From assembly GCA_019120295.1 (NCBI GenBank), contig DWVI01000004.1, forward strand, positions 38,201 to 102,200: a stretch of 64,000 nucleotides of DNA, in the 5' to 3' direction. The notes beneath the pieces are model-generated. The model saw only the letters and a list, made by a program, of their open reading frames with translations. It ran no database searches and was not told the DNA's origin. This document shows, in pieces, positions 4,193 to 49,938 of this stretch. A program made the translations under genes and the position numbers. This DNA comes from Candidatus Onthoplasma faecipullorum (GTDB lineage Bacteria; Bacillota; Clostridia; Christensenellales; UBA1242). Numbering within the stretch: the stretch's first letter is position 1; every line of letters starts with the position of its first letter.

Positions 4193-4936
4193 TTACGCGC
4201 CTTCTATAAGCATTTTATCTGCTACTAATGCTATAAATTCCCCATTAGTTGGTTTTTCATTGCTTGAATACACTTTAATTCCAAACAAATTGTTTATATT
4301 TTCAATCTTTCCCCTGTTCCAAGCAACTTCAATCGCGTGACGAATTGCTCGCTCTACCTTTGATGCGCTGGTGGAATATTTTTCCGCAATTGTAGGATAC
4401 AATTTTTTTGTTATTGAATTAATAATTTCTGGATTTGCAATAGCAAGTTTAATGGCTTCTCTTAGGAATTGGTAACCTTTAATGTGTGCTGGAATACCAA
4501 CAGTTATAAATATGTTTGTGATTTTTTCTTCTATTTGATTAGTTTTACCATTGTACACTCTTCCGCCCGATTTGTTTTCGCTCATTATATCTTCAATTCT
4601 ATCTTTTAGCGTTTCAAAATCAAACGGTTTTATGCAGTAGTAACTAGCACCCATAGAAATTGCTTTGTTTATAAACCCATCAATCGACAAGCTTGACTGT
4701 ATAATAACTTTTGTTTTAGATAAATCTGCTTTTTCAAGTAGTTTGAAGCCATCTGCACCTTGCAAAACAATATCGGTAATAACTAAGTCTGGTTTAAACT
4801 TGTTTACGAGTTCAATCAACTCTTCCCCATTGTTTGTGGTGGCTACAACATCGTAACCGATGTTTTTAAAATTCTTATCTAAACAGTCAATTAACTGCTT
4901 GTCTTCGTCTGCTAGTACAACTTTTAATTTGTTCAT
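4193..4936 (-). CDS. spo0A: Sporulation master regulator Spo0A
   Basis: Receiver domain (KVVLADEDKQL..DLVITDIVLQGADGF) and Spo0A_C (SASKVERAIRHAIEVAWNRGKIENINNLFG). Confidence 0.96.
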   Translation of the reverse strand: MNKLKVVLADEDKQLIDCLDKNFKNIGYDVVATTNNGEELIELVNKFKPDLVITDIVLQGADGFKLLEKADLSKTKVIIQSSLSIDGFINKAISMGASYYCIKPFDFETLKDRIEDIMSENKSGGRVYNGKTNQIEEKITNIFITVGIPAHIKGYQFLREAIKLAIANPEIINSITKKLYPTIAEKYSTSASKVERAIRHAIEVAWNRGKIENINNLFGIKVYSSNEKPTNGEFIALVADKMLIEGA

Positions 4937-12623: not shown

Positions 12624-14480
12624 TTATTTGATATTAATTATAGTTTCGTCGCCACAAATGTTTCTGATTTTCATTCTTAATGGTTTCTTTGTGAAAGCGA
12701 TTTTGCCATTCCAATAGAATTTTGTTTTTTCACCATTTATAGTTAAATAATTATTTTTCTCAACTTTTATTTCACTATCAGATGTCCAACTTCCTTCATT
12801 ATTTGTGCAATCAAGACTTATGAATTCAATTAATTCAAGTCCTTCATCGCTAATTGTTAAAGGGTTGTATTCTTCATTCTTTTTTATAGCTTGTGCTTGC
12901 ATCTTATCATTATATCCATCGATTTTTTGTTGAACTCTATCACTTGCAAAATGTTTGATCTCAACTTCGTTATCTTTTATTTCATAATCAACTTCATCGC
13001 CAATAACAACTTCGCTTAAAAGTTGTTTCAAATCTCTAAACTCAATTTCTATTTCAGTGTTGTTTTGCTCTTTAATAAAATCATCAATCGCTTTCTTATC
13101 TTCAATATCAATATAATACACAATAACTTTTTTGACATTATCAGGTAAATCTGGCAATGCTTGATGTATAATTTCATTAACAAGCCTTGTATCTAAAATT
13201 CTTCCTGTTCCTTCAAGTAAATTAGGAATATACACAGGCATCATTCCATATTTGCTGTCTTGAATTGAACCTTCCCAAAACTTATCAAGCCCATCTTCAT
13301 TTTTAAGCCCTTGAATAAGTGATTTTAATTTATCCATTGTTTGTTGTGGATTCCTGTATAATGACACACCATCTTTGACTTCTAAAATTTCAAATTCTGC
13401 ATTATTTGATTTAAGTCTATCTCGTATTGTTTGAATACTATTTATTCCAACATCACAAGTAATAAACTTTCTATTTAATTTGTGTGCAACGGCTGCAGTA
13501 ACACCACTTCCACCAAAGAAGTCAGCGACAATCATTCCTTCATTTGACGATGCTTTTATAATTCTTTCTAATAATGCTTCAGGTTTTTGAGTGGAATAAT
13601 CAACTTTTTCTGCTGAAGTCGGTTGTTGTTGAAATGACATTACATCATTCCAAACATCGCCTAAAGGCTTTCCTTCACTTAATTCATCTAAATATCTTTT
13701 AGAACCATGAGCAATCATATATTTTCTACCATTTTGATCGACTCTATTGAACATATTAATATATTTTTCAGTATGAGGTTGAATTAATCTATTAAAAATT
13801 CTTTCTTCTTTCATTGAATAATAAAATATTGAATCATGACCACGAACCCAATTGGGGGCAAGAGTCTTAAACCCTGATAAAACTTGAATATCCCAAATAA
13901 TTTCTCTTTGAAAATTATCTTCACCAAATATTTCATCCATCAAAATTTTTACATAGTGCCCTATGTGCCAATCAAGATGAACATAAATTGATGCAGTTTC
14001 ACTCATGACAGATTTGATTGCAAGCAAATTCTCATACATCCAGTTTAGATATGATTCTTTGTTCCACACATCGCCATACATTTTTTCTTCAAATGCTTTT
14101 AAATCATCATTATTAAGTTCGGTTTCTGCTTTTTTAATTGCCTCATCTACTTTTGGATTTCTACGAATATAAACCTTCTTTGCATAATCTGCACCACTTG
14201 CAAAAGGTGGATCAATGTAAACTAAATCAACTTTTATATTATTTTCTTTTAAATAAGCACAAGCAGAAAGGCATTCACCACGAATAACAAGATTGTTATC
14301 TTTGTTTTTGCCCACTTTTTCAATACTTTCCATTTCATATAAAGGCATACCTTTTGCAATACTACTGTAAACATTATCGTTGTCTTTATATTTTAAAAAT
14401 CTTTGAGTTCTTGTAAAGTTGTTTAATATTGCTTGTCCTTCAATTGTCTCTGGAAAATATGGAACATATTTAATTGCCAT
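12624..14480 (-). CDS. Type III-like site-specific DNA (adenine/N4-cytosine) methyltransferase (Mod)
   Basis: DPPF catalytic motif 'VDLVYIDPPFASGADYAKK' preceding AdoMet motif 'VADFFGGSGVTAAVAHKLNRKFITCD' (beta-class order). Confidence 0.9.
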   Translation of the reverse strand: MAIKYVPYFPETIEGQAILNNFTRTQRFLKYKDNDNVYSSIAKGMPLYEMESIEKVGKNKDNNLVIRGECLSACAYLKENNIKVDLVYIDPPFASGADYAKKVYIRRNPKVDEAIKKAETELNNDDLKAFEEKMYGDVWNKESYLNWMYENLLAIKSVMSETASIYVHLDWHIGHYVKILMDEIFGEDNFQREIIWDIQVLSGFKTLAPNWVRGHDSIFYYSMKEERIFNRLIQPHTEKYINMFNRVDQNGRKYMIAHGSKRYLDELSEGKPLGDVWNDVMSFQQQPTSAEKVDYSTQKPEALLERIIKASSNEGMIVADFFGGSGVTAAVAHKLNRKFITCDVGINSIQTIRDRLKSNNAEFEILEVKDGVSLYRNPQQTMDKLKSLIQGLKNEDGLDKFWEGSIQDSKYGMMPVYIPNLLEGTGRILDTRLVNEIIHQALPDLPDNVKKVIVYYIDIEDKKAIDDFIKEQNNTEIEIEFRDLKQLLSEVVIGDEVDYEIKDNEVEIKHFASDRVQQKIDGYNDKMQAQAIKKNEEYNPLTISDEGLELIEFISLDCTNNEGSWTSDSEIKVEKNNYLTINGEKTKFYWNGKIAFTKKPLRMKIRNICGDETIINIK

Positions 14481-14826
14481 TTTTATTTTTCTCCTTTTGT
14501 TTATCTATTTCTGTATTAATTGTATTAGTAATTAAATTTTGTAACGATTCATTAGTTATAATTTGACCCACTAATTTAGCACCTAATTGATTTATTACTT
14601 CTTGATTTTTCATATCTTTTTCATGTTTTTGTTGCATTTCTATTTTTTCCATTTCAAGTTGATGATTTTCTTTCATGTTCTCTAACTCATTTTTATGCAA
14701 TTCTCTTACCTTTTCAATTTCCTTATTAGAATTTTTAACTGCAAGAATATATGATAATATTCCAGAGATTAATGCTGTTATGATCGGCACACAAATTGTT
14801 AAAACTGTTAAAATCTCATTGCTCAT
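14470..14826 (-). CDS. Small membrane-anchored coiled-coil protein of R-M operon
   Basis: N-terminal TM 'ILTVLTICVPIITALISGILSYILAV' then K/E-rich heptad-like region; overlaps mod start by 11 bp. Confidence 0.65.
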   Translation of the reverse strand: MSNEILTVLTICVPIITALISGILSYILAVKNSNKEIEKVRELHKNELENMKENHQLEMEKIEMQQKHEKDMKNQEVINQLGAKLVGQIITNESLQNLITNTINTEIDKQKEKNKNGN

Positions 14827-14829
14827 AAT

Positions 14830-17691
14830 CTACTCCTTAAACAAATTGTAAATTTTGTCATTTAGTCTTTTTAAAGCATCGTTTTCATTTTCATTATCTT
14901 GCATATAGAAATAATCAAATTTATTGTTATTTATCTCTAAAAATTTTGATTTAACAAAATCTTTTTTATCATTAAATGCTTTATCTTCTGCAAAGCCTGA
15001 ACCTTTTGTTTCAATAATTAAAACTTTGTCAATTTTGTCATTTTTTCTATTTAATACTAGAAAGTCTGGTGTATACATACCGATGTAATACCAAGCATTT
15101 TCTTTTAATTTGTAGCACTTGATTTTAAATTCTGTAAGCGCCCTATCTCCATTGTAATAGACTTCTAAATTATTGTTTTGGAAAGCTGGCAATCTTAAAA
15201 TCTTTATAAATATGTTTTCTTCAAACTTACTTTGCGAAAAATTATAAGGCAAATATTGAAAAGTTTTATCTTTTAATTTAATTTCAGGTGAAATGCTAAA
15301 TTTTTGTTCTATAACATCTTCCATACCAAGAGCTTTTAACCCTGCAATTTGCTTTTCTTGCTCAGGGGTGTAGAAGGTCCCTCTTTTGTCTATTTGTATA
15401 ATTCTATCAACAACATTTTTTAATGGATAAAATTTTGAAGCATCACTTGTTCTAACGATTTCTGTAAAATTATCTTTATTTAGTAAAGATTTTGAATCAA
15501 ATAAAACTTCTTCACTTGTTTTAAATGTGTATGATTTTTGGAATGCTTTTCTAATTTCGCTGTTAATTTTAGAAATATCATAAAGATTATTAAAATAATT
15601 TAATTCATCTTTACAAATAGTTATAGTTGTAAATATATTTTTCAAAATATCATCATATTTATATAAATCACTTATTTGAAACAAATTGAAACTTTCTTTA
15701 CATATAGCAAGCAACCATTTTGAATAAGTTGTTATCTCATCACCATAATCGTTTTCAAATTCAATATGATTTAAAGTTTGTCCTTTTATATCTTGTTGCA
15801 CGGTAGTTACTATTTGCTTTTCAAGTTTAATCTTTTTTAATTTATCTTGAACTGATAAATTATCTTCAACCTCAACTGTTTCGTATTCAACTTTAAATTG
15901 ATAAAAATCTATATTGGGCAATTTTAATCTTTTAGTTCTGTCATATCTTCTAATATCTATTTTGTCAATCCTTTGAACATTATTAATTTCTTCAATTGAT
16001 GTATGTTGTTCTTCTGCCAGTTGAGAGTTTAAAATTTTTGCATTATAATCATTTAACCATATTATAGCAGTTTCAATTGTGCTATTTTTATCTACTTGCC
16101 TTAAACACCTACAAGAAGTTTGTAAAACCATATTGTTAGGGCAGTCACCTTCTTGTGAAAGAATAACCCCTGTTAAACTTTTACAATCCCAACCTTCTTT
16201 TCCAATTTGAGCGAGCAAGACTATTTTCTTTTTGCTTACACTTGAATCAAGCGATAAAAATTCCAACTCTTCTTGTTTGGAACAAGAATATTTTTTATCT
16301 TTATCTGATCCGTGATAACATAGTATAACTTCATCTGGATTAAGTCCGTATTTAGTTGCGATTTCAACACATTTTGGATAAATCACTTCTCTTAACTTTG
16401 CAATTCTTCCACAATAAATTGCTATTTTAGCACAAGTTCCATTAGCGTAAATTGTATCTTTATAATTTTCAAAGAAATCTGTTAAACCTTTCTCAATTAT
16501 CAGCATACTATCTCTGTCTGTAACTATATTAATTTTAGGCTTTTTTAGAAATGTTTCTACTGCTTTAATCAAAGGAAAAAAATTTACAATATATGGAATT
16601 TGTATTGTTTTGTATGTAAGGTTATTTGAAAATTTAACAGATTGTCCTTTGTTATAATAAGGAGTTCCGCTAAAACCAATCATGCTATTCATCTTGCCAT
16701 CGCGATACCAATAATTTACAACACCATTAAGTTTTACTTCTTCATCGGCAAGGTGATGCACCTCATCAACTATAACTTGAAGATTAGGGATATATGCAAT
16801 AAACTTCTTTAATTCATTCATTGCTTTTTCTTCTTCACTAATTTGTTCAAATGTAATTTGCCTTGTTGTTTTATCGAGTTTTATATTATCTAGTATTACT
16901 TTCTCAGCATTTGTTACTAAAACTAGTCCAATAAGTGAATCAAAAGGTTGATAACTCGCTACTTTTTGAACATTAGGATTTTTAATTTTATTGCTCTTCT
17001 TCGCCGTTTTTGATTCTTCTAATACCTCAAATTTTAAAACTTTTTTTATTTGTTTAACTGCATTTTCTGGCAATATCCATGTTGCATCAAAGTTTTTAAT
17101 AGTTTTTAAACTAGGTATTACAGAAGATTTTAACCCTGATGGAGCAAAAATAATAAAATTATGTGCAAATGATTTATTGGTTGGTTCTTTTAAAGCAAAA
17201 TATAAATCTAAAAAGATAAATGATGCCATTAGAAAAGTTTTTCCAGCCCCCATAGGTAAACTAAACAAATAGTTAACATAATTTTGATTATTAAACATAT
17301 TTTTTATCGCACGCTTAAAGTCAATATTTTCAGCATTGCTTTTAATCTCATTATTTAACAACTGAAAAATTCTATTTCCATTTTCATCTGTTAAACTACT
17401 ATACTCATAAAGAGCAAGTGCTTCTTTTTGTTCCCTTAATATATTTTTAGTTGAATCTTTTAATTCTAATTGTGAAATATCAATTTCTTCATTAAAAAGT
17501 CCTTCTATCATACATTGATATAAAGGTTTGTTTTGACATTTAATTTTAAGAAATAAGTAGGTTTTAATTGCATCAATTTGAGAATCTCTCATTTCTCCTT
17601 TATTATACATATAGTCTATCAATTCCTGCACAGTGCAATCATTACTTTGGAACCATTTATCTCTGGCTTTGTTTATCATTTTAAACAGCAT
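14830..17691 (-). CDS. Type III-like restriction subunit (Res): SF2 helicase + PD-(D/E)XK nuclease
   Basis: Walker A 'LPMGAGKTFLMASF', DExH box 'VDEVHHLADEE', C-terminal 'PDFLVLNRKNDKIDKVLIIETKGSGF'. Confidence 0.88.
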   Translation of the reverse strand: MLFKMINKARDKWFQSNDCTVQELIDYMYNKGEMRDSQIDAIKTYLFLKIKCQNKPLYQCMIEGLFNEEIDISQLELKDSTKNILREQKEALALYEYSSLTDENGNRIFQLLNNEIKSNAENIDFKRAIKNMFNNQNYVNYLFSLPMGAGKTFLMASFIFLDLYFALKEPTNKSFAHNFIIFAPSGLKSSVIPSLKTIKNFDATWILPENAVKQIKKVLKFEVLEESKTAKKSNKIKNPNVQKVASYQPFDSLIGLVLVTNAEKVILDNIKLDKTTRQITFEQISEEEKAMNELKKFIAYIPNLQVIVDEVHHLADEEVKLNGVVNYWYRDGKMNSMIGFSGTPYYNKGQSVKFSNNLTYKTIQIPYIVNFFPLIKAVETFLKKPKINIVTDRDSMLIIEKGLTDFFENYKDTIYANGTCAKIAIYCGRIAKLREVIYPKCVEIATKYGLNPDEVILCYHGSDKDKKYSCSKQEELEFLSLDSSVSKKKIVLLAQIGKEGWDCKSLTGVILSQEGDCPNNMVLQTSCRCLRQVDKNSTIETAIIWLNDYNAKILNSQLAEEQHTSIEEINNVQRIDKIDIRRYDRTKRLKLPNIDFYQFKVEYETVEVEDNLSVQDKLKKIKLEKQIVTTVQQDIKGQTLNHIEFENDYGDEITTYSKWLLAICKESFNLFQISDLYKYDDILKNIFTTITICKDELNYFNNLYDISKINSEIRKAFQKSYTFKTSEEVLFDSKSLLNKDNFTEIVRTSDASKFYPLKNVVDRIIQIDKRGTFYTPEQEKQIAGLKALGMEDVIEQKFSISPEIKLKDKTFQYLPYNFSQSKFEENIFIKILRLPAFQNNNLEVYYNGDRALTEFKIKCYKLKENAWYYIGMYTPDFLVLNRKNDKIDKVLIIETKGSGFAEDKAFNDKKDFVKSKFLEINNNKFDYFYMQDNENENDALKRLNDKIYNLFKE

Positions 17692-17780
17692 TACGTTTTC
17701 TCCATAAAATTATTAATATATTATAACATAAAAACTTATAATTTGGTATAATTTTAAACAAATTTAAATGAAAAATTAAA

Positions 17781-17810
17781 AATGAGATCCTGGCGTGTGC
17801 TTGTCTTGAA
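17781..17810. repeat. Direct repeat copy 1 (second copy 19271-19300)
   Basis: aatgagatcCtGgcgtgtgcttgtcttgaa versus aatgagatcGtAgcgtgtgcttgtcttgaa, 28/30 identical. Confidence 0.85.
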
Positions 17811-17850
17811 CAAGTGGTGTCGCTTCGCTCCACCAGACAAGCACACGCCA
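17791..17850. repeat. GC-rich hairpin, 16-bp perfect inverted repeat
   Basis: TGGCGTGTGCTTGTCT (17791-17806) / AGACAAGCACACGCCA (17835-17850). Confidence 0.9.
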
Positions 17851-17953
17851 AAATAAAAAATTACTACTTTAAAGAATAGAAACTAACAACTAATTTAAAA
17901 ATATAAAATTAGTAAATAAAAAATATACAAAAATGAAGTAGTTTTAGATATCC

Positions 17954-18057
17954 AGAACAAACAGCAAGAACTGACGAAAGAGATGTCGCAAGGCGCAAGG
18001 CTTATCCATTGCGACATTCTCTTCTTTTTTATGTCAGTTCTTGCTTTTCGTTGTTCT
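17954..18057. ncRNA. Long nested hairpin (possible structured RNA or palindromic element)
   Basis: agaacaa/ttgttct; AGCAAGAACTGAC (17963-17975)/GTCAGTTCTTGCT (18033-18045); TGTCGCAA (17984-17991)/TTGCGACA (18009-18016). Confidence 0.5.
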
Positions 18058-18402
18058 CCTTTTCTTCGCCTTTTGGCTGGTATGTTCGCATAGTTCTCAC
18101 AACAATTCAAGGAAAATATATATTTTGTTTACAATTTACATTTGAACTAGGTTTTTAACCTAGTCTTTTTATTTGCACAAATATATATTTCTTCTTCCTT
18201 GACTTGTTGTTTATGAGATTACGAACTTATAAAAATATATATATTGATTTTAATTTGCACTAATTTTTGTGCTTATTCGTTGTGTTAGTTATTAAAATTA
18301 TCTGTTTAATATTTTACAGACATTCTATATAAAATTTTAAATATTCAGTCAAACTATGCTCTTTTTGTTTGTGCCAAAAGGCAAATAAAAGGAGTTATAT
18401 AT

Positions 18403-19035
18403 ATGAATGAAGTTAAAAAGAAAGTTAGCATTTTAGAAGATAATGTAGTTATTACATTAGACAATCTTCAAGAATTATCTAAATGCTTTGCAGTAGTTGG
18501 ATTAAAATCTATTAAAAAGTATGCTTTTAGCGGTATGCCAAAAATAGAAAGATTACAAAAGCAACTATATCAAGATATACATTATCATAAAGAGTTAGAT
18601 ACATATTCAGATGCTTATGATTTAGTACAAGAAGCAAGTCTATTTTTATACAAATTTTTAGGACATAGACTTGGTGAGCTATGCAAAAGTTCTAAATCAA
18701 AATCTGGAAATATTGATACAATTAGAACTGCTTGTCTAAGGGTAATACAAACATATTTAAGAAAAGAATTAAAATATTATACCAACACAACTAATGAAGA
18801 AGAATATCTTGAAGTTGTAGATGAAAAACCTATTATAAAGGAAAAAGAAGATTATTCAAAAGTAAAAGAGATAACAAATAAGATAGTTCAAACAGAGTTA
18901 GAAAAACAAATATTATATTATTTCTACAATGGAGTTGCTCCAAAACTTGTTGCTGAATTTTTACAAATTAGTACAGATAAAGTATATAAACGAAGAAGGA
19001 AATTTAGAGCAAGATACAACTCACTATTTGCTTAA
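18403..19035 (+). CDS. Sigma-70-like/HTH regulator of mobile element
   Basis: C-terminal HTH-like 'LEKQILYYFYNGVAPKLVAEFLQISTDKVYKRRRKFRARY'; upstream of serine recombinase. Confidence 0.6.
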   Translation: MNEVKKKVSILEDNVVITLDNLQELSKCFAVVGLKSIKKYAFSGMPKIERLQKQLYQDIHYHKELDTYSDAYDLVQEASLFLYKFLGHRLGELCKSSKSKSGNIDTIRTACLRVIQTYLRKELKYYTNTTNEEEYLEVVDEKPIIKEKEDYSKVKEITNKIVQTELEKQILYYFYNGVAPKLVAEFLQISTDKVYKRRRKFRARYNSLFA

Positions 19036-19270
19036 TATGTTTAATCCATACAAAAAAAGTATGGATTTTTATTGATTAATTTTAAAATGTGCCTTAACTT
19101 TTAGTTCATTTCGTGGCTATATAATGATAAGTCTTATCAAGTGTGAGCATAAAGTTTGCAAAAACTACCGCAAAAAACATATTTGTTCACTAAAAGTACG
19201 CATAAACTACCTATAAATTCCATGGTAATTCGTAAAACTTTATGATATTATCTCAGCATTAAATTTAATA

Positions 19271-19300
19271 AATGAGATCGTAGCGTGTGCTTGTCTTGAA
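19271..19300. repeat. Direct repeat copy 2
   Basis: See 17781-17810. Confidence 0.85.
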
Positions 19301-19477
19301 ACAAGTGAATAGTCTTTCGAGTGCGAAGTATAAACGAAAACTCACAATAGTCAAAGGTAAAGTGTATTGTTCCACAACCTTTGACAATTGTATGAAAATT
19401 TTAAGATTAAAGCAAACATTCGTTTCCGTTTGTTTCGCCCTTGTCGAAAGACAAACTAAAAATAAAAGGAGTAAAAA

Positions 19478-21109
19478 ATGAAAACAGCAGTAATATATGC
19501 CCGTTATAGTTCAGATAGTCAATCTGAGCAAAGTATTGAAGGTCAAATTCGTGTTTGCAAGGATTATGCCGAAAAGAATGATATCATTGTAATTGACACC
19601 TACATAGATAGAGCAATGACTGGAACAAATGATAATAGGGTTGCTTTTCAAAAAATGTTAAAAGATAGTTCTAATCATCAATTTTCAGTTGTGCTTGTTT
19701 ACAAATTAGATAGATTTAGTAGGAACAAATACGAAAGTGTTATCCATAAGAAAACATTAAAAGACAATGGAGTGAGTCTTATATCTTGTATGGAAAACAT
19801 ACCAAACACACCAGAAGGTACACTTATGGAAACACTACTTGAAGGCTTTAATCAATATTTCAGTGAAGAACTTACACAAAAAGTAAATCGTGGACTAAGA
19901 GAGAGTTGGCTTAAAGGCAACGCAACTGGAGGCAAAAAAGTTTTTGGATATGACATCATAGACAAAAAGTATGTAATAAACGAATATGAAAAAAACATTG
20001 TCATTCGAGTATTCAGATTATATGCCGATGGTTATAGAGCAAGAGTTATAGCAGAACAACTTAATGAACTAGGTTATCATAGAATAAATGGTAAAAAGTT
20101 TGATGAAAAGTATGTATTATGGATACTTAACAATTCGAGATATACAGGTATAGTAGAACATCACGGAATAAAGTATGATAAAATCTTTCCACGAATAATT
20201 GATGATGACCTTTGGAATAAAGTGAATAAAATAAATGAAGAAAACAAAATTGCACCTAGTAGAAAAAAAGAGATTTATGACTATATTCTCTCTGGCAAAC
20301 TTATATGCGGAGAATGCAAACATAAAATGTATGGCGAAAGTGGCACAAGTCATACAAAAGATATCCATTATTACTATGTTTGCGGCTCACGAAGAAAAAA
20401 GTTAGGTCCTTGTAATATGAAATCAGTTAAAAAGCAAGAACTTGAAGATCTTGTTATGCAAGCAATAACTAAAGCACTTAACAGCGAAGAAAACATACAG
20501 TTTTTAACTGATAAAATTTTTGAATATCATAAACAAAATGCAAATGATAATTCAAACTTGAAACTACTAGAACAAAGAGAAAAGGAAATAAATAAATCTT
20601 GTCAAAATATGATTAAAGCGATTGAACAAGGGATAATAACAGAGATGACAAAAAGTCGTTTGAGTGAACTTGAAACAGAACTTGAACAAATAAAAATTGA
20701 AATCACAAAAGAAAAACATAAAAACAATTTGCTTTTAACAAAGGAAGATATTGACCAATTTTTACGAAAGCAAGTGTTTGAAGATACAAGCGACATTAAA
20801 ATACGAAAACTCTTAGTCAATACATTTGTTAGAGCAATCTATTTATATAATGATGCAGTAGTTGTATTGTTTAACTATACAAATAATCCAACGCCACCAA
20901 AATTTACACTTGAAGAAAACATTGAAACGGAAAAGCAGATTAATTCTGCTTTATCTAATCCTCAAAGTTCGTGCATATTACCCCAATCCGCACCACATAA
21001 AAATAATTATTTACTAAATAATAAACATTTATTAAAAAATAATTATAAAAATAAAATATTCTCTAACCACAAATTAGTTATTATAATTTTTATAAAAAAA
21101 CTGAAATAA
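19478..21109 (+). CDS. Large serine recombinase
   Basis: 'AVIYARYSSDSQSEQSIEGQIRVCKDYA', 'VYKLDRFSRNKY', recombinase domain, zinc ribbon 'LSGKLICGECKHKMYG..YYVCGSRRKKLGPCNMK'. Confidence 0.93.
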   Translation: MKTAVIYARYSSDSQSEQSIEGQIRVCKDYAEKNDIIVIDTYIDRAMTGTNDNRVAFQKMLKDSSNHQFSVVLVYKLDRFSRNKYESVIHKKTLKDNGVSLISCMENIPNTPEGTLMETLLEGFNQYFSEELTQKVNRGLRESWLKGNATGGKKVFGYDIIDKKYVINEYEKNIVIRVFRLYADGYRARVIAEQLNELGYHRINGKKFDEKYVLWILNNSRYTGIVEHHGIKYDKIFPRIIDDDLWNKVNKINEENKIAPSRKKEIYDYILSGKLICGECKHKMYGESGTSHTKDIHYYYVCGSRRKKLGPCNMKSVKKQELEDLVMQAITKALNSEENIQFLTDKIFEYHKQNANDNSNLKLLEQREKEINKSCQNMIKAIEQGIITEMTKSRLSELETELEQIKIEITKEKHKNNLLLTKEDIDQFLRKQVFEDTSDIKIRKLLVNTFVRAIYLYNDAVVVLFNYTNNPTPPKFTLEENIETEKQINSALSNPQSSCILPQSAPHKNNYLLNNKHLLKNNYKNKIFSNHKLVIIIFIKKLK

Positions 21110-21280: not shown

Positions 21281-22378
21281 TTATCTAGCCTTAACTGGTA
21301 AAATTAAAAATACAAAATCGTTTCCTTCAGTTGGAGTGATAGTGCAAGGAAGAATTGGACTATTAAAGTTGATTTTTACGTATGGATTATCAATCACACG
21401 CAAACAGTCCGTAAAATACTTAGAATTAAACGAAATGGTTAAGTCATTTCCTTTAACTCCAACAGTTATATTTTCCTTAGTGTTACCAATTTCAGAATTG
21501 GAAGTGAGCATTAAATTTTTCTCTTTAATGTCAAATTTAACAAGGTTATTTTTATCCATTTTACTTAGCACACTAGCACGGTCAATAGCATCTTCAAGTT
21601 GTTCTTTATTGATAGTAACAACAGTTGAAAAATCTTTTGGAACAATTTGCCTATAATTGATAAATTGACCTTCTATCAAGCGGTTTATAACAATAGTATC
21701 CCCTAAATCAACCATGATGTTGTTTGAATGCACATAAACTTTAATTGAGTTTTCACCGTCCATCATTTTCACAATTTCATACATATTTTTTCCAGGAACA
21801 ATAAGTTTGAAATCGTTTGTGCTAGAAACTAATGTTTTATTTGAAATACTTAGCCTACAACCATCGAGTGCAACTGCTCTAATGTTGTTAGCGTTTGTTT
21901 CAATTAAAATACCCTTTAAAATTGGCCTGCTATCGTCCTGTGCAACAGCATAAAAAACATTATTTATAAGTTTTTTGAAATCTTCCTTTTCAATTTCAAA
22001 ATATGAATCTTTGCTAAGTTCTCTAATTTGTGGAAATTCACTGATTTCCATACATTGCAAAACACCTTCACTATCAGTGTAAGCAATTCTTAATTGATTT
22101 TTTTCATTTAGTTCACATTCAATTTGTTCGTTTGTAAGTTTACGTATGTACTCTCCAAACAATCTACCAGGAACAACAGTTTCACCATCGCTTTCAATTT
22201 CAGCGCGTATTGTTTTTTCAATACTCATTTCTAAATCGGTTGCAGAAAGAATAAGCCTATCATCTTTTGCCACCATTTTAACGCCTTCTAAAATTTGCGA
22301 AGTGGTTTTATTTGAAATTGCTTTGCTCACAACAGATATAGCTTCACTTAACTCTAAACCATCACATCTAAATTTCAT
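21281..22378 (-). CDS. dnaN: DNA polymerase III beta sliding clamp
   Basis: Full-length (365 aa) clamp with typical N-terminus and C-terminal 'VFLILPVKAR'. Confidence 0.95.
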   Translation of the reverse strand: MKFRCDGLELSEAISVVSKAISNKTTSQILEGVKMVAKDDRLILSATDLEMSIEKTIRAEIESDGETVVPGRLFGEYIRKLTNEQIECELNEKNQLRIAYTDSEGVLQCMEISEFPQIRELSKDSYFEIEKEDFKKLINNVFYAVAQDDSRPILKGILIETNANNIRAVALDGCRLSISNKTLVSSTNDFKLIVPGKNMYEIVKMMDGENSIKVYVHSNNIMVDLGDTIVINRLIEGQFINYRQIVPKDFSTVVTINKEQLEDAIDRASVLSKMDKNNLVKFDIKEKNLMLTSNSEIGNTKENITVGVKGNDLTISFNSKYFTDCLRVIDNPYVKINFNSPILPCTITPTEGNDFVFLILPVKAR

Positions 22379-22654
22379 AATTCAACCCTTTTAGTAAAAT
22401 GTTCCCCCTAGCATTTACGTAAGTATACTACCACCCCAAAATTTATATGTCAAACAAAAATGTCAATTTTTGAAAAATTTTAAAAAACTTTTGGCTAAAA
22501 TTTTCTCTTTATATAATATATCAAATAAACTTAAAAAATATAATTTATAAATTGCTTGAAATCAACTATATTATAGGCAATTTGGTGCATTACGCGTGCG
22601 CTTATTTTTTATTAAATTTTTTTAGTTTTTGATAGTGATTTTTTTATTAAAAAC

Positions 22655-22819
22655 TGTGGATTTGTGGATAACTTTTGAATTTACAATATATGGTGGTGAT
22701 TAAGACATATTTCGACAATTTTAGCACTATTTTTTTCCACAATTAAGGTGCATATCTATGTTGATTAAGATGTTGATAAATGCTTTTACCATGTGGAAAA
22801 CTATAAAAATCTCGACAAA
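22655..22819. promoter_or_regulatory. DnaA-box-containing dnaN/dnaA intergenic region (candidate oriC and/or dnaA autoregulation)
   Basis: TGTGGATAA 22663-22671, TTTTCCACA 22733-22741, TGTTGATAA 22771-22779, TGTGGAAAA 22792-22800; 0A-like TTCGACAA at 22711. Confidence 0.65.
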
Positions 22820-23028
22820 TTTACCTAATAAACCAACTTAACAAACGGTAAAAAATTATAAAAGTATCAAAATATAGTTGACAACTAAAAAAAACATCAA
22901 ATTTTACAAATTAAAAAAAACAAAGCCGACTTTAATCAAACAATTTGAAAATTAGACAATTTTTTTATTATACAATCTGCCTTGACTTTTTTATACAATT
23001 ATTATATAATAAAAGCAGGAGTTGAGAT

Positions 23029-32476: not shown

Positions 32477-32492
32477 TGTTCCACGTGGAACA
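32477..32492. promoter_or_regulatory. parS site 1
   Basis: TGTTCCACGTGGAACA. Confidence 0.95.
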
Positions 32493-32644
32493 ATTTATAT
32501 TATAATATAAAATTGCAACTATAAATGTCAACAAATTTTTATGTAACTTAAAAATAAATTTAAATATTATATATTGTTTAAGTTCTATCATAATAATTAA
32601 AATATATTTAATTATAATTTATTAGATAAAAACAACTAACCAAT

Positions 32645-32660
32645 TGTTCCACGTGAAACA
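32645..32660. promoter_or_regulatory. parS site 2
   Basis: TGTTCCACGTGAAACA. Confidence 0.93.
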
Positions 32661-32855
32661 TTTATAATTGTTTAAACCGTTTTTGGTATTTACGCATAAG
32701 AATAGAATAAATTTTGATAGATTTTTTAAACTTCATATTTTATTTTTTAATTATTAAAGGAATTTAACTTTAATTAATCTAAATCAATACTATCTATTAT
32801 ATATTCATCTATCTTTCATTAATTATTATATATCCAATTTACGCGGCAAAAAGAA

Positions 32856-32871
32856 TGTTCCACGTGGAACA
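32856..32871. promoter_or_regulatory. parS site 3 (inside 28-bp palindrome)
   Basis: AAAGAATGTTCCACGTGGAACATTCTTT. Confidence 0.95.
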
Positions 32872-33135
32872 TTCTTTATTATTAAGTTTAATAATTCTTA
32901 ATGAGATAAATCAAAACCGTAAGTTTAACTTTGGTTGTTTATAATTAAAATTATTTTATTTAATTTTTGTATGTACTAGATACAGTATTTATTCTGTGAT
33001 GATATTCAACTCAGCAAATATACTAAAAAATTTATACAACATGATTTAATTATGATTGACCAAACTTACTATAAAAAGCATTAAATCTGCTTACATTTTT
33101 CATATAAAATGTTGTGGTTTTGTTTTTATATTAAA

Positions 33136-33151
33136 TGTTCCACGTGGAACA
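33136..33151. promoter_or_regulatory. parS site 4
   Basis: TGTTCCACGTGGAACA. Confidence 0.95.
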
Positions 33152-47684: not shown

Positions 47685-48374
47685 TTAACCAAAATATAAA
47701 AGTATCCCATTGTAAACGGCGTTAATAAATTGCATGCGGTATTCGTCGGTGTTAAGAAGGCGCTCTTCTTCTGGGTTAGATAAAAAACCACACTCTATTA
47801 ACACTGCGGTGTAATAACTTTCGTTTAAAATATAGTAGTCACCAACTTTTCCGGTGGTTGACGGCGCGCCTACATAGGTGTTTAACGATTGTTGAATAAG
47901 GTCGGACACAATTTTTCCAGACTCGTCCCCCTTGCGGTAATACGTGCTAGCACCATGAGGCGATTGAGTAGAGAAACTATTCATATGTATTGAAATAACT
48001 AAATTTGGGTTTGCGCGTTTTATAATATTCATACGAGCATTCATATCGCTCATTTTTTTGTTTTTTGCACTTTCTAAATAAAGTCCGTCGTCCGTTTTGC
48101 GAGTTAGTTCCACGCGGTAACCTGCTTCAACCAACTTTTCTTTTAATGCCAATGTGTATTTTAAGTTGATTTCTTTTTCAATCGTTCCATTCACTCCAAC
48201 ACTTCCGCCGTCCCTTCCGCCATGGCCGGCATCAAGCACTATGGTAATTCCATTATAACTTGCTTTGCTCACTGCCACAATATGTGAAAACGCAAACGAG
48301 AGTAAAAACATCAACGCTACTAGTATTATAACGCATCGGTTGGCGGAAAAAAATCTTTTGATTTTTAGTTTCAT
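47685..48374 (-). CDS. cwlD: N-acetylmuramoyl-L-alanine amidase (CwlD-like)
   Basis: 'IVLDAGHGGRDGGSVGVNGTIEKEINL', 'LVISIHMNSF', 'AVLIECGFLSNPEEERLL'. Confidence 0.88.
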   Translation of the reverse strand: MKLKIKRFFSANRCVIILVALMFLLSFAFSHIVAVSKASYNGITIVLDAGHGGRDGGSVGVNGTIEKEINLKYTLALKEKLVEAGYRVELTRKTDDGLYLESAKNKKMSDMNARMNIIKRANPNLVISIHMNSFSTQSPHGASTYYRKGDESGKIVSDLIQQSLNTYVGAPSTTGKVGDYYILNESYYTAVLIECGFLSNPEEERLLNTDEYRMQFINAVYNGILLYFG

Positions 48375-48611: not shown

Positions 48612-48718
48612 TTTTCCACATAGATTTTCGACTTTTCCACACTTTATCCACAAGTTATCCACAGAGTTATCCACATTATGTGGATAACTTTTTGCGTTTT
48701 TGGGGTTAATTATCAACA
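48612..48718. promoter_or_regulatory. Dense DnaA-box cluster (candidate oriC or DnaA regulatory/titration site)
   Basis: TTTTCCACA 48612-48620 and 48633-48641; TTATCCACA 48644-48652, 48655-48663, 48667-48675; TGTGGATAA 48679-48687; near-match TTATCAACA 48710-48718. Confidence 0.88.
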
Positions 48719-48960
48719 ATGTGTACATTTTTCGACATATTTTTTAGTTATAAATAGAAATAGCACTAAATAATATACTTGTTCAATTTTAAATATGCTT
48801 GTTTAATTTTAGCGTCTTCGTCTAAATAAAATTTAGTATTTTTTCAATTTGGTTTATTTAATACAATAATATAGTGAACATGTTAAATTTATAAAGAGTA
48901 ATTGTAATTTAATAGGTAATTTAACTTTAAAAATAAAAAAATATTTGGTATAATATAAAT

Positions 48961-49938
48961 ATGATAAACAAATTGTTTGATGCGTTAAATAGAGCAAAGT
49001 CGATTGCTCTTATTGCTCACATTTCACCAGATGCGGACGCACTTTGCAGTATGGTGCTTCTTAAAAATTTTTTAGTTAAAGCGCTAAAAAAGAGAGTGGA
49101 CATTTTTGCAGAGTGCGACGAAATAGCGGAAAATTATCACGCCATTTTAGGTGACAATAAAATAAATAAAGAAATAAAAAATTACCACACCGCAATCATT
49201 TTAGATTGCCCAAATTTACCTAGAGTTGGAAAATATGGCGAGATTTTTGAACGTGCCAAACAAAAAATTGTTATAGACCACCATGACACAACACAGTTTT
49301 CAGCAGATGTTAAAATTGTGAAACATGTGAGTTCAACATGTGAAATTTTATATGATATACTTAAAAAGTTCAATTACAAGTTTACCAACGCAGATTATGG
49401 AATGGTGTATGCTGGAATTATAACAGACACTAACAATTTGTCCGTTGGAGCAATGACGAAAAACACATTTAAAATTATAAGTGAGTGTTTTCCACACATC
49501 GACCAACAAGCGATTTATGATAATTTCTTTTCATTTAATTCAATGCGCAATATGAAATTACTTTCACGTGCGATTGAAAATATTGTAACGTTTATGCACG
49601 GTAGAATTATAATCACCCACATAACACATGAAGAAGCAAAACGCAACAAAGCGGGTGATAATGATTATGTTGGAATTATAAATAGGCTTGCAACAATCAG
49701 CGGGAATAAACTTGTGTGCTTTTCTTATCCAAAAGGCAATGGTTATTACGTTTCAATGCGTGCAAAACGCGGTTATGATTGTTCTCAAATCGCTTTATCA
49801 CACGGCGGTGGTGGGCACAAAGGTGCAAGTGCATATTTATCAAACGAAAGTCTGCAAAAAATAGAACAGGATATTTTGCAAGAATTTACCGAGCAAATTC
49901 AAAACACAAAACAGCAAATTAAGCAAAAAGTGTTTTAA
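48961..49938 (+). CDS. DHH/DHHA1 phosphoesterase (NrnA-like oligoribonuclease)
   Basis: 'IAHISPDADALCSMVLL', 'IVIDHHDTT', 'GGGGHKGASAYLS'. Confidence 0.9.
   Translation: MINKLFDALNRAKSIALIAHISPDADALCSMVLLKNFLVKALKKRVDIFAECDEIAENYHAILGDNKINKEIKNYHTAIILDCPNLPRVGKYGEIFERAKQKIVIDHHDTTQFSADVKIVKHVSSTCEILYDILKKFNYKFTNADYGMVYAGIITDTNNLSVGAMTKNTFKIISECFPHIDQQAIYDNFFSFNSMRNMKLLSRAIENIVTFMHGRIIITHITHEEAKRNKAGDNDYVGIINRLATISGNKLVCFSYPKGNGYYVSMRAKRGYDCSQIALSHGGGGHKGASAYLSNESLQKIEQDILQEFTEQIQNTKQQIKQKVF

Follow-up and report, generated by a model that had tools for sequence, protein, structure and literature searches.

A six-box DnaA array between cwlD and a DHH phosphoesterase gene

The window analyzed here is a 64-kb stretch of the 1.14-Mb genome of an uncultured gut bacterium, and all coordinates are positions within it (Table 1). 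Between a cwlD-like amidase gene and a gene for an NrnA-like DHH/DHHA1 phosphoesterase, about 26 kb from the dnaN-dnaA gap, six exact DnaA boxes span 76 bp. Their start-to-start distances are 21, 11, 11, 12, and 12 bp. Boxes 1 to 5 point rightward, and box 6 is reversed, forming with box 5 the palindrome GTTATCCACA-TTA-TGTGGATAAC. An earlier, sequence-only reading of this DNA had placed six boxes here, described the last five as 11 to 12 bp apart, and noted that the flanking genes diverge. Our sequence search recovered every box at exactly the position given and with that spacing, and the genes do diverge, because the Pfam assignments put cwlD on the minus strand and the phosphoesterase gene on the plus strand. 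The same reading had pointed out TTATCAACA (48710) and TTTTCGACAT (48729), both of which are present. We dropped them as parts of the array, since this stretch is kept only in the closest relative, G147. The DNA to the right of the array is AT rich. The spacer between boxes 1 and 2 carries TTCGAC (reverse, GTCGAA), a Spo0A-box-like motif of putative function.

Based on the 22 TTWTNCACA boxes in the 64 kb, the chance of finding five more boxes within 68 bp was estimated at about 3e-10 per window. A genome-wide search identified the array as the sole place in the 1.14 Mb with three boxes at gaps of ≤20 bp; TTATCCACA occurs 51 times in the genome, versus 22 for the reversed pattern. By CwlD comparison, the nearest named relatives are uncultured members of the Clostridia sampled from guts, Candidatus Onthoplasma among them. 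Near dnaN lie a serine recombinase gene (19478 to 21109; Pfam PF00239/PF07508) and what we take, from its sequence, to be a type III restriction-modification pair (12624 to 17691); the region from 12624 to 21109, adjoining the origin, is a possible mobile island.

Table 1. Features of the window bearing on the array and on the origin
Feature	Position	Strand	Basis and remarks
Spo0A gene	4193-4936		Encoded in the window
dnaN	21281-22378	-	Pfam PF00712, PF02767, PF02768
Probable oriC (dnaN-dnaA gap)	22379-23028		Skew flip; conserved box/DUE block
T-rich, DUE-like element TTTTTGATAGTGATTTTTTTATTA	22626-22649	+	In all 11 aligned genomes; adjoins the tandem boxes
Tandem DnaA boxes TGTGGATTT, TGTGGATAA	22654-22671	-	Box search, alignment; beside the DUE-like element
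dnaA	23029-24378	+	Pfam PF00308, PF08299
recF, rsmG, mnmG, mnmE, parB, parA	After dnaA	-	recF, parB, parA by Pfam; rsmG, mnmG, mnmE presumed from translations
Four parS-like sites in the parB-parA interval	32477-33151		Site search
cwlD-like N-acetylmuramoyl-L-alanine amidase gene (left neighbor)	47685-48374	-	Pfam PF01520 (Amidase_3)
DnaA box 1, TTTTCCACA	48612-48620	+	Sequence match; TTATCCACA or TTTTCCACA here in 9/12 aligned species
12-bp spacer with TTCGAC	48621-48632	+	TTCGAC kept in 8/12 aligned species
DnaA box 2, TTTTCCACA	48633-48641	+	Sequence match, 12-species alignment
DnaA box 3, TTATCCACA	48644-48652	+	TTTTCCACA, TTGTCCACA, GTATCCACA, or ATTTCCACA in relatives
DnaA box 4, TTATCCACA	48655-48663	+	Invariant in 12 species
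DnaA box 5, TTATCCACA	48667-48675	+	Nearly invariant, 12-species alignment
DnaA box 6, inverted TTATCCACA	48679-48687	-	Sequence match, 12-species alignment
DHH/DHHA1 phosphoesterase gene, NrnA-like (right neighbor)	48961-49938	+	Pfam PF01368, PF02272

Conservation of the array within the genus and beyond

The core of the array (box-NNN-box-NNN-inverted box) was detected in 24 of the 34 genomes of the genus, as a single copy in each; as a control, the reversed pattern gave zero matches across the 34. Wherever the neighbors were mapped, the core lay in the same cwlD/DHH gap with fixed 11/12/21-bp spacing, and a scan of CwlD relatives found box clusters with identical spacings in this gap. Over 12 species, identity was 79% in the array but 34% in both flanks, about the level of unrelated AT-rich DNA, and boxes 4 to 6 were almost invariant. 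This difference indicates that selection acts on the boxes themselves. The sequence-only reading had proposed to look for the array in relatives; of the outcome that would have spoken against it, the part calling for no conservation of the boxes there is plainly not what we found. In a second clade of the genus (G157, G171, and G195), the same gap holds four to seven boxes in another layout, which suggests that at this site a box cluster matters more than one exact arrangement. We conclude that the array is real and conserved and is probably functional.

On all contigs that carry both, the array is found near dnaA, at 9.6 to 38 kb from oriC (ten contigs). Its distances to its own neighbors vary among species, from about 67 bp to 5.7 kb for cwlD and from about 90 bp to 1.1 kb for the DHH gene. 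Outside the genus, box clusters occur upstream of cwlD in genera g24 and g27 and in the sister genus g28, whose version has four boxes and lies no more than 80 bp from the gene; in the cross-genus scan, most other genera of the family had none there. DnaA-box clusters away from both dnaA and cwlD occur in other genera of the family (G088:C7:287044 and 308694, G003:C23, and G126:C3:64087).

A blastn match to Microviridae raised the question of a phage origin for the array. We rejected this origin, as only the tandem boxes match, without flanks, and the array is inherited together with cwlD/DHH. The matching small single-stranded DNA phages (PQ006781, OQ686952, KT264787, and PQ006258) carry rows of four to six TTATCCACA boxes at 11- to 12-bp or about 22-bp spacing, adjoining the replication initiator or VP1 gene. 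Comparable rows turned up in T5-like phages, in large Vibrio phages, and on IMG/VR contigs, where at least 120 stretches matched. A limited literature search found no paper joining Microviridae with DnaA boxes.

Location of the chromosomal origin

On the window's contig, the raw cumulative skew reached its minimum at 34.1 kb, at parA, between the dnaN-dnaA gap and the array. More contigs were therefore needed, and a single-contig raw skew would have misled on its own. Because gene direction biases raw skew, we rejected it as an origin locator and instead fitted third-codon-position GC skew as the sum of replication direction and gene direction over ten genus contigs, chosen for carrying both dnaA and the array or an array variant. 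Replication polarity was −0.88 ± 0.13 over the 25 kb leading up to dnaA, +0.71 ± 0.12 between dnaA and the array, and +1.04 ± 0.13 beyond the array. It was already +0.72 in the dnaA-adjacent quarter of the dnaA-array interval (leave-one-genome-out range, 0.64 to 0.77). These error bars are optimistic, because single contigs scatter (−0.08 to 1.77) and the species are related. The strand-asymmetry switch is thus at dnaA and absent at the array, whereas an origin at the array would require a polarity of about −1 in the interval. The GC skew check proposed with the sequence-only reading accordingly places the skew pole at dnaA, in line with one half of what that reading listed as speaking against it.

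The dnaN-dnaA gap has a conserved block in all 11 aligned genomes: the T-rich element TTTTTGATAGTGATTTTTTTATTA, two tandem boxes, and then weak boxes over about 150 bp. Weak DnaA boxes are usual in origins. Boxes with ≤2 mismatches exceeded the shuffle mean in every one of these 11 genomes. The earlier judgment that the array is much stronger than the boxes beside dnaA holds for exact boxes, but weak ones are in excess in the gap. The T-rich element sits on the side toward which the tandem boxes point, which is the polarity of the B. subtilis unwinding system (PMC8287927) and of that cited for Clostridioides difficile (PMC7561715). Inspected by eye for a classical DnaA-trio, it shows the expected position and polarity but lacks clean TAG repeats.

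The origin block keeps its place next to dnaN whichever way dnaA faces. In most of the genus (the window, G050, G164, G111, G093, G189, G157, G171, G195, and G192), dnaA runs opposite to dnaN, while recF-dnaA-dnaN all run in one direction in G177, G182, and the sister genus g28. G182 and G177, with dnaA in the ordinary orientation, have the box cluster at its standard location, the interval separating dnaA from dnaN. Perfect Spo0A boxes (TGTCGAA/TTCGACA) occur once or twice per genome in the dnaN-dnaA gap of 8 of the 11 genomes examined and are absent from that of G157, G171, and G195; the B. subtilis oriC likewise has Spo0A boxes (PMC5295017).

These data bear directly on a possible origin role of the array, whether as a displaced chromosomal origin, a second one, or the distal half of a bipartite one. 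It is the densest box cluster in the genome, it lies near the skew pole region, and it has AT-rich DNA to its right. However, the polarity flips at dnaA rather than at the array, and the conserved DUE-like block sits in the dnaN-dnaA gap. With both flanks at 34% identity, there is no conserved DUE beside the array, and its boxes point at each other, leaving no room for an unwinding stretch given the polarity described above (PMC8287927, PMC7561715). A search for a DnaA-trio or DUE at the array, suggested earlier, came out in favor of the dnaN-dnaA gap. The array has the box cluster of an oriC but neither the skew switch nor the conserved unwinding element or DnaA-trio. We reject the displaced-origin reading and consider any origin role of the array very improbable. 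Box density alone would misplace the origin by 26 kb.

Candidate roles of the array

Clusters of DnaA boxes outside the origin form a known class. In B. subtilis, eight high-affinity DnaA regions were detected in vitro, two of them in oriC (PMC4447404), and removal of six DnaA-box clusters causes early initiation, partly relieved by restoring one (PMC5295017). Like those clusters (near ywlC, ywcI, yydA, sda, gcp/ydiF, and trmE), the array is an intergenic group of near-consensus boxes outside oriC, and it is origin proximal. Unlike them, it is a head-to-tail row in strict phase that ends in an inverted box as a cap, has cwlD and DHH as neighbors, and occurs in genomes in which no YabA was found. 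B. subtilis has several clusters per genome, whereas we detected one at the stringency used; multiplicity, though, describes the B. subtilis set and not any individual cluster. E. coli datA is also an extra-oriC DnaA-box cluster, and it lowers available DnaA (PMC4451416), as the array may do; it differs in its position, >450 kb from oriC, and in stimulating hydrolysis of the ATP bound to DnaA. The datA and DARS loci switch the nucleotide state of DnaA and carry IHF/Fis sites. The oriC2 of Firmicutes, in the dnaA-dnaN gap of, e.g., Clostridioides difficile, shares tandem boxes with the array, which differs in having no trio or DUE and in lying off the skew pole; the oriC2 equivalent in this genome is the dnaN-dnaA gap (PMC7561715).

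We favor, with moderate confidence, the view that the array is an extra-origin, origin-proximal cluster that sequesters DnaA. The sequence-only reading had likewise offered a DnaA-binding locus comparable to datA/DARS or the B. subtilis clusters; the strong conservation supports that proposal, in which DnaA binding and an effect on initiation are putative. DnaA on five head-to-tail boxes, the last four 11 to 12 bp apart, would bind along a single face of the helix, where it could assemble cooperatively, the inverted sixth box capping the row as a palindrome. Because it lies 9.6 to 38 kb from oriC, the array would be copied soon after initiation, doubling the number of high-affinity sites; free DnaA would then fall, and an immediate second initiation would be hindered. 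Occupancy, a cooperative filament, titration, and a timing effect are what we infer for this site. YabA is a brake on DnaA in Firmicutes. It was not found in any of the 20 genus genomes searched, which makes another brake plausible. The titration capacity, six boxes versus a handful in oriC, may be modest, because there is one cluster here rather than the several of B. subtilis, and the near-invariant spacing exceeds the needs of a pure sink and counts against it.

DnaA at the array might instead repress or activate cwlD, DHH, or both, so that sporulation or nucleotide turnover would be coupled to replication. CwlD is a spore cortex amidase, and DnaA acts in this way at sda in B. subtilis. The array does lie between divergent genes, Spo0A is encoded in the window, and the spacer motif TTCGAC is widely kept (Table 1). 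Many members, as well as genera g24, g27, and g28, have a cluster no more than about 270 bp upstream of cwlD, and in other genera box density is 1.35 per kb upstream of cwlD versus 0.54 elsewhere, on small numbers that come mostly from two genera. That three other genera also have clusters close upstream of cwlD hints at some connection with this gene and keeps transcriptional control alive. However, cwlD is 2.4 to 5.7 kb away in G093, G124, G186, and G177, DHH is 1.1 kb away in G164 and missing from this place in g28, and box clusters are missing upstream of cwlD in most other genera. In sda-type control, boxes would be expected at a set distance from one promoter; the array has no such fixed position, and its variable distances to both neighbors fit a function of the site itself better than control of one promoter. 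We regard transcriptional control as rather unlikely. A link to the centromere, with DnaA at the array aiding ParABS in moving or licensing the origin region, appears quite improbable, although the array lies 2 to 4 kb from parS in eight of nine genus contigs with recognized parS, often in the order cwlD-array-DHH-parB, with which further genomes agree. In Caulobacter, partitioning requires DnaA, which binds the parS region at boxes near the centromere (PMC6399470); the array likewise lies near parS in most relatives here. The array differs in sitting beyond the parS cluster, at 2 to 15.5 kb from parS, and in belonging to an unrelated lineage. It is 15.5 kb from parS in the window, the g28 array and parAB are on separate contigs, and the linkage may reflect inherited gene order.

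Beyond sequestration of DnaA, the array might be a dedicated switch of this reduced-genome lineage: a DnaA filament formed close to the parABS centromere would link initiation to segregation of the origin or stand in for YabA as the principal brake. We hold this to be improbable; if it were true, the near-invariant spacing would encode a specific nucleoprotein structure, beyond mere site number. A limited literature search found no earlier description of an extra-origin DnaA-box cluster in the Onthoplasma lineage, and the array adds to this known class. As a single, minimal, and strongly conserved cluster in small genomes, it offers a clean test of whether a few origin-proximal sites suffice to titrate DnaA, and it bears on how Firmicutes without YabA hold initiation to once per cycle.
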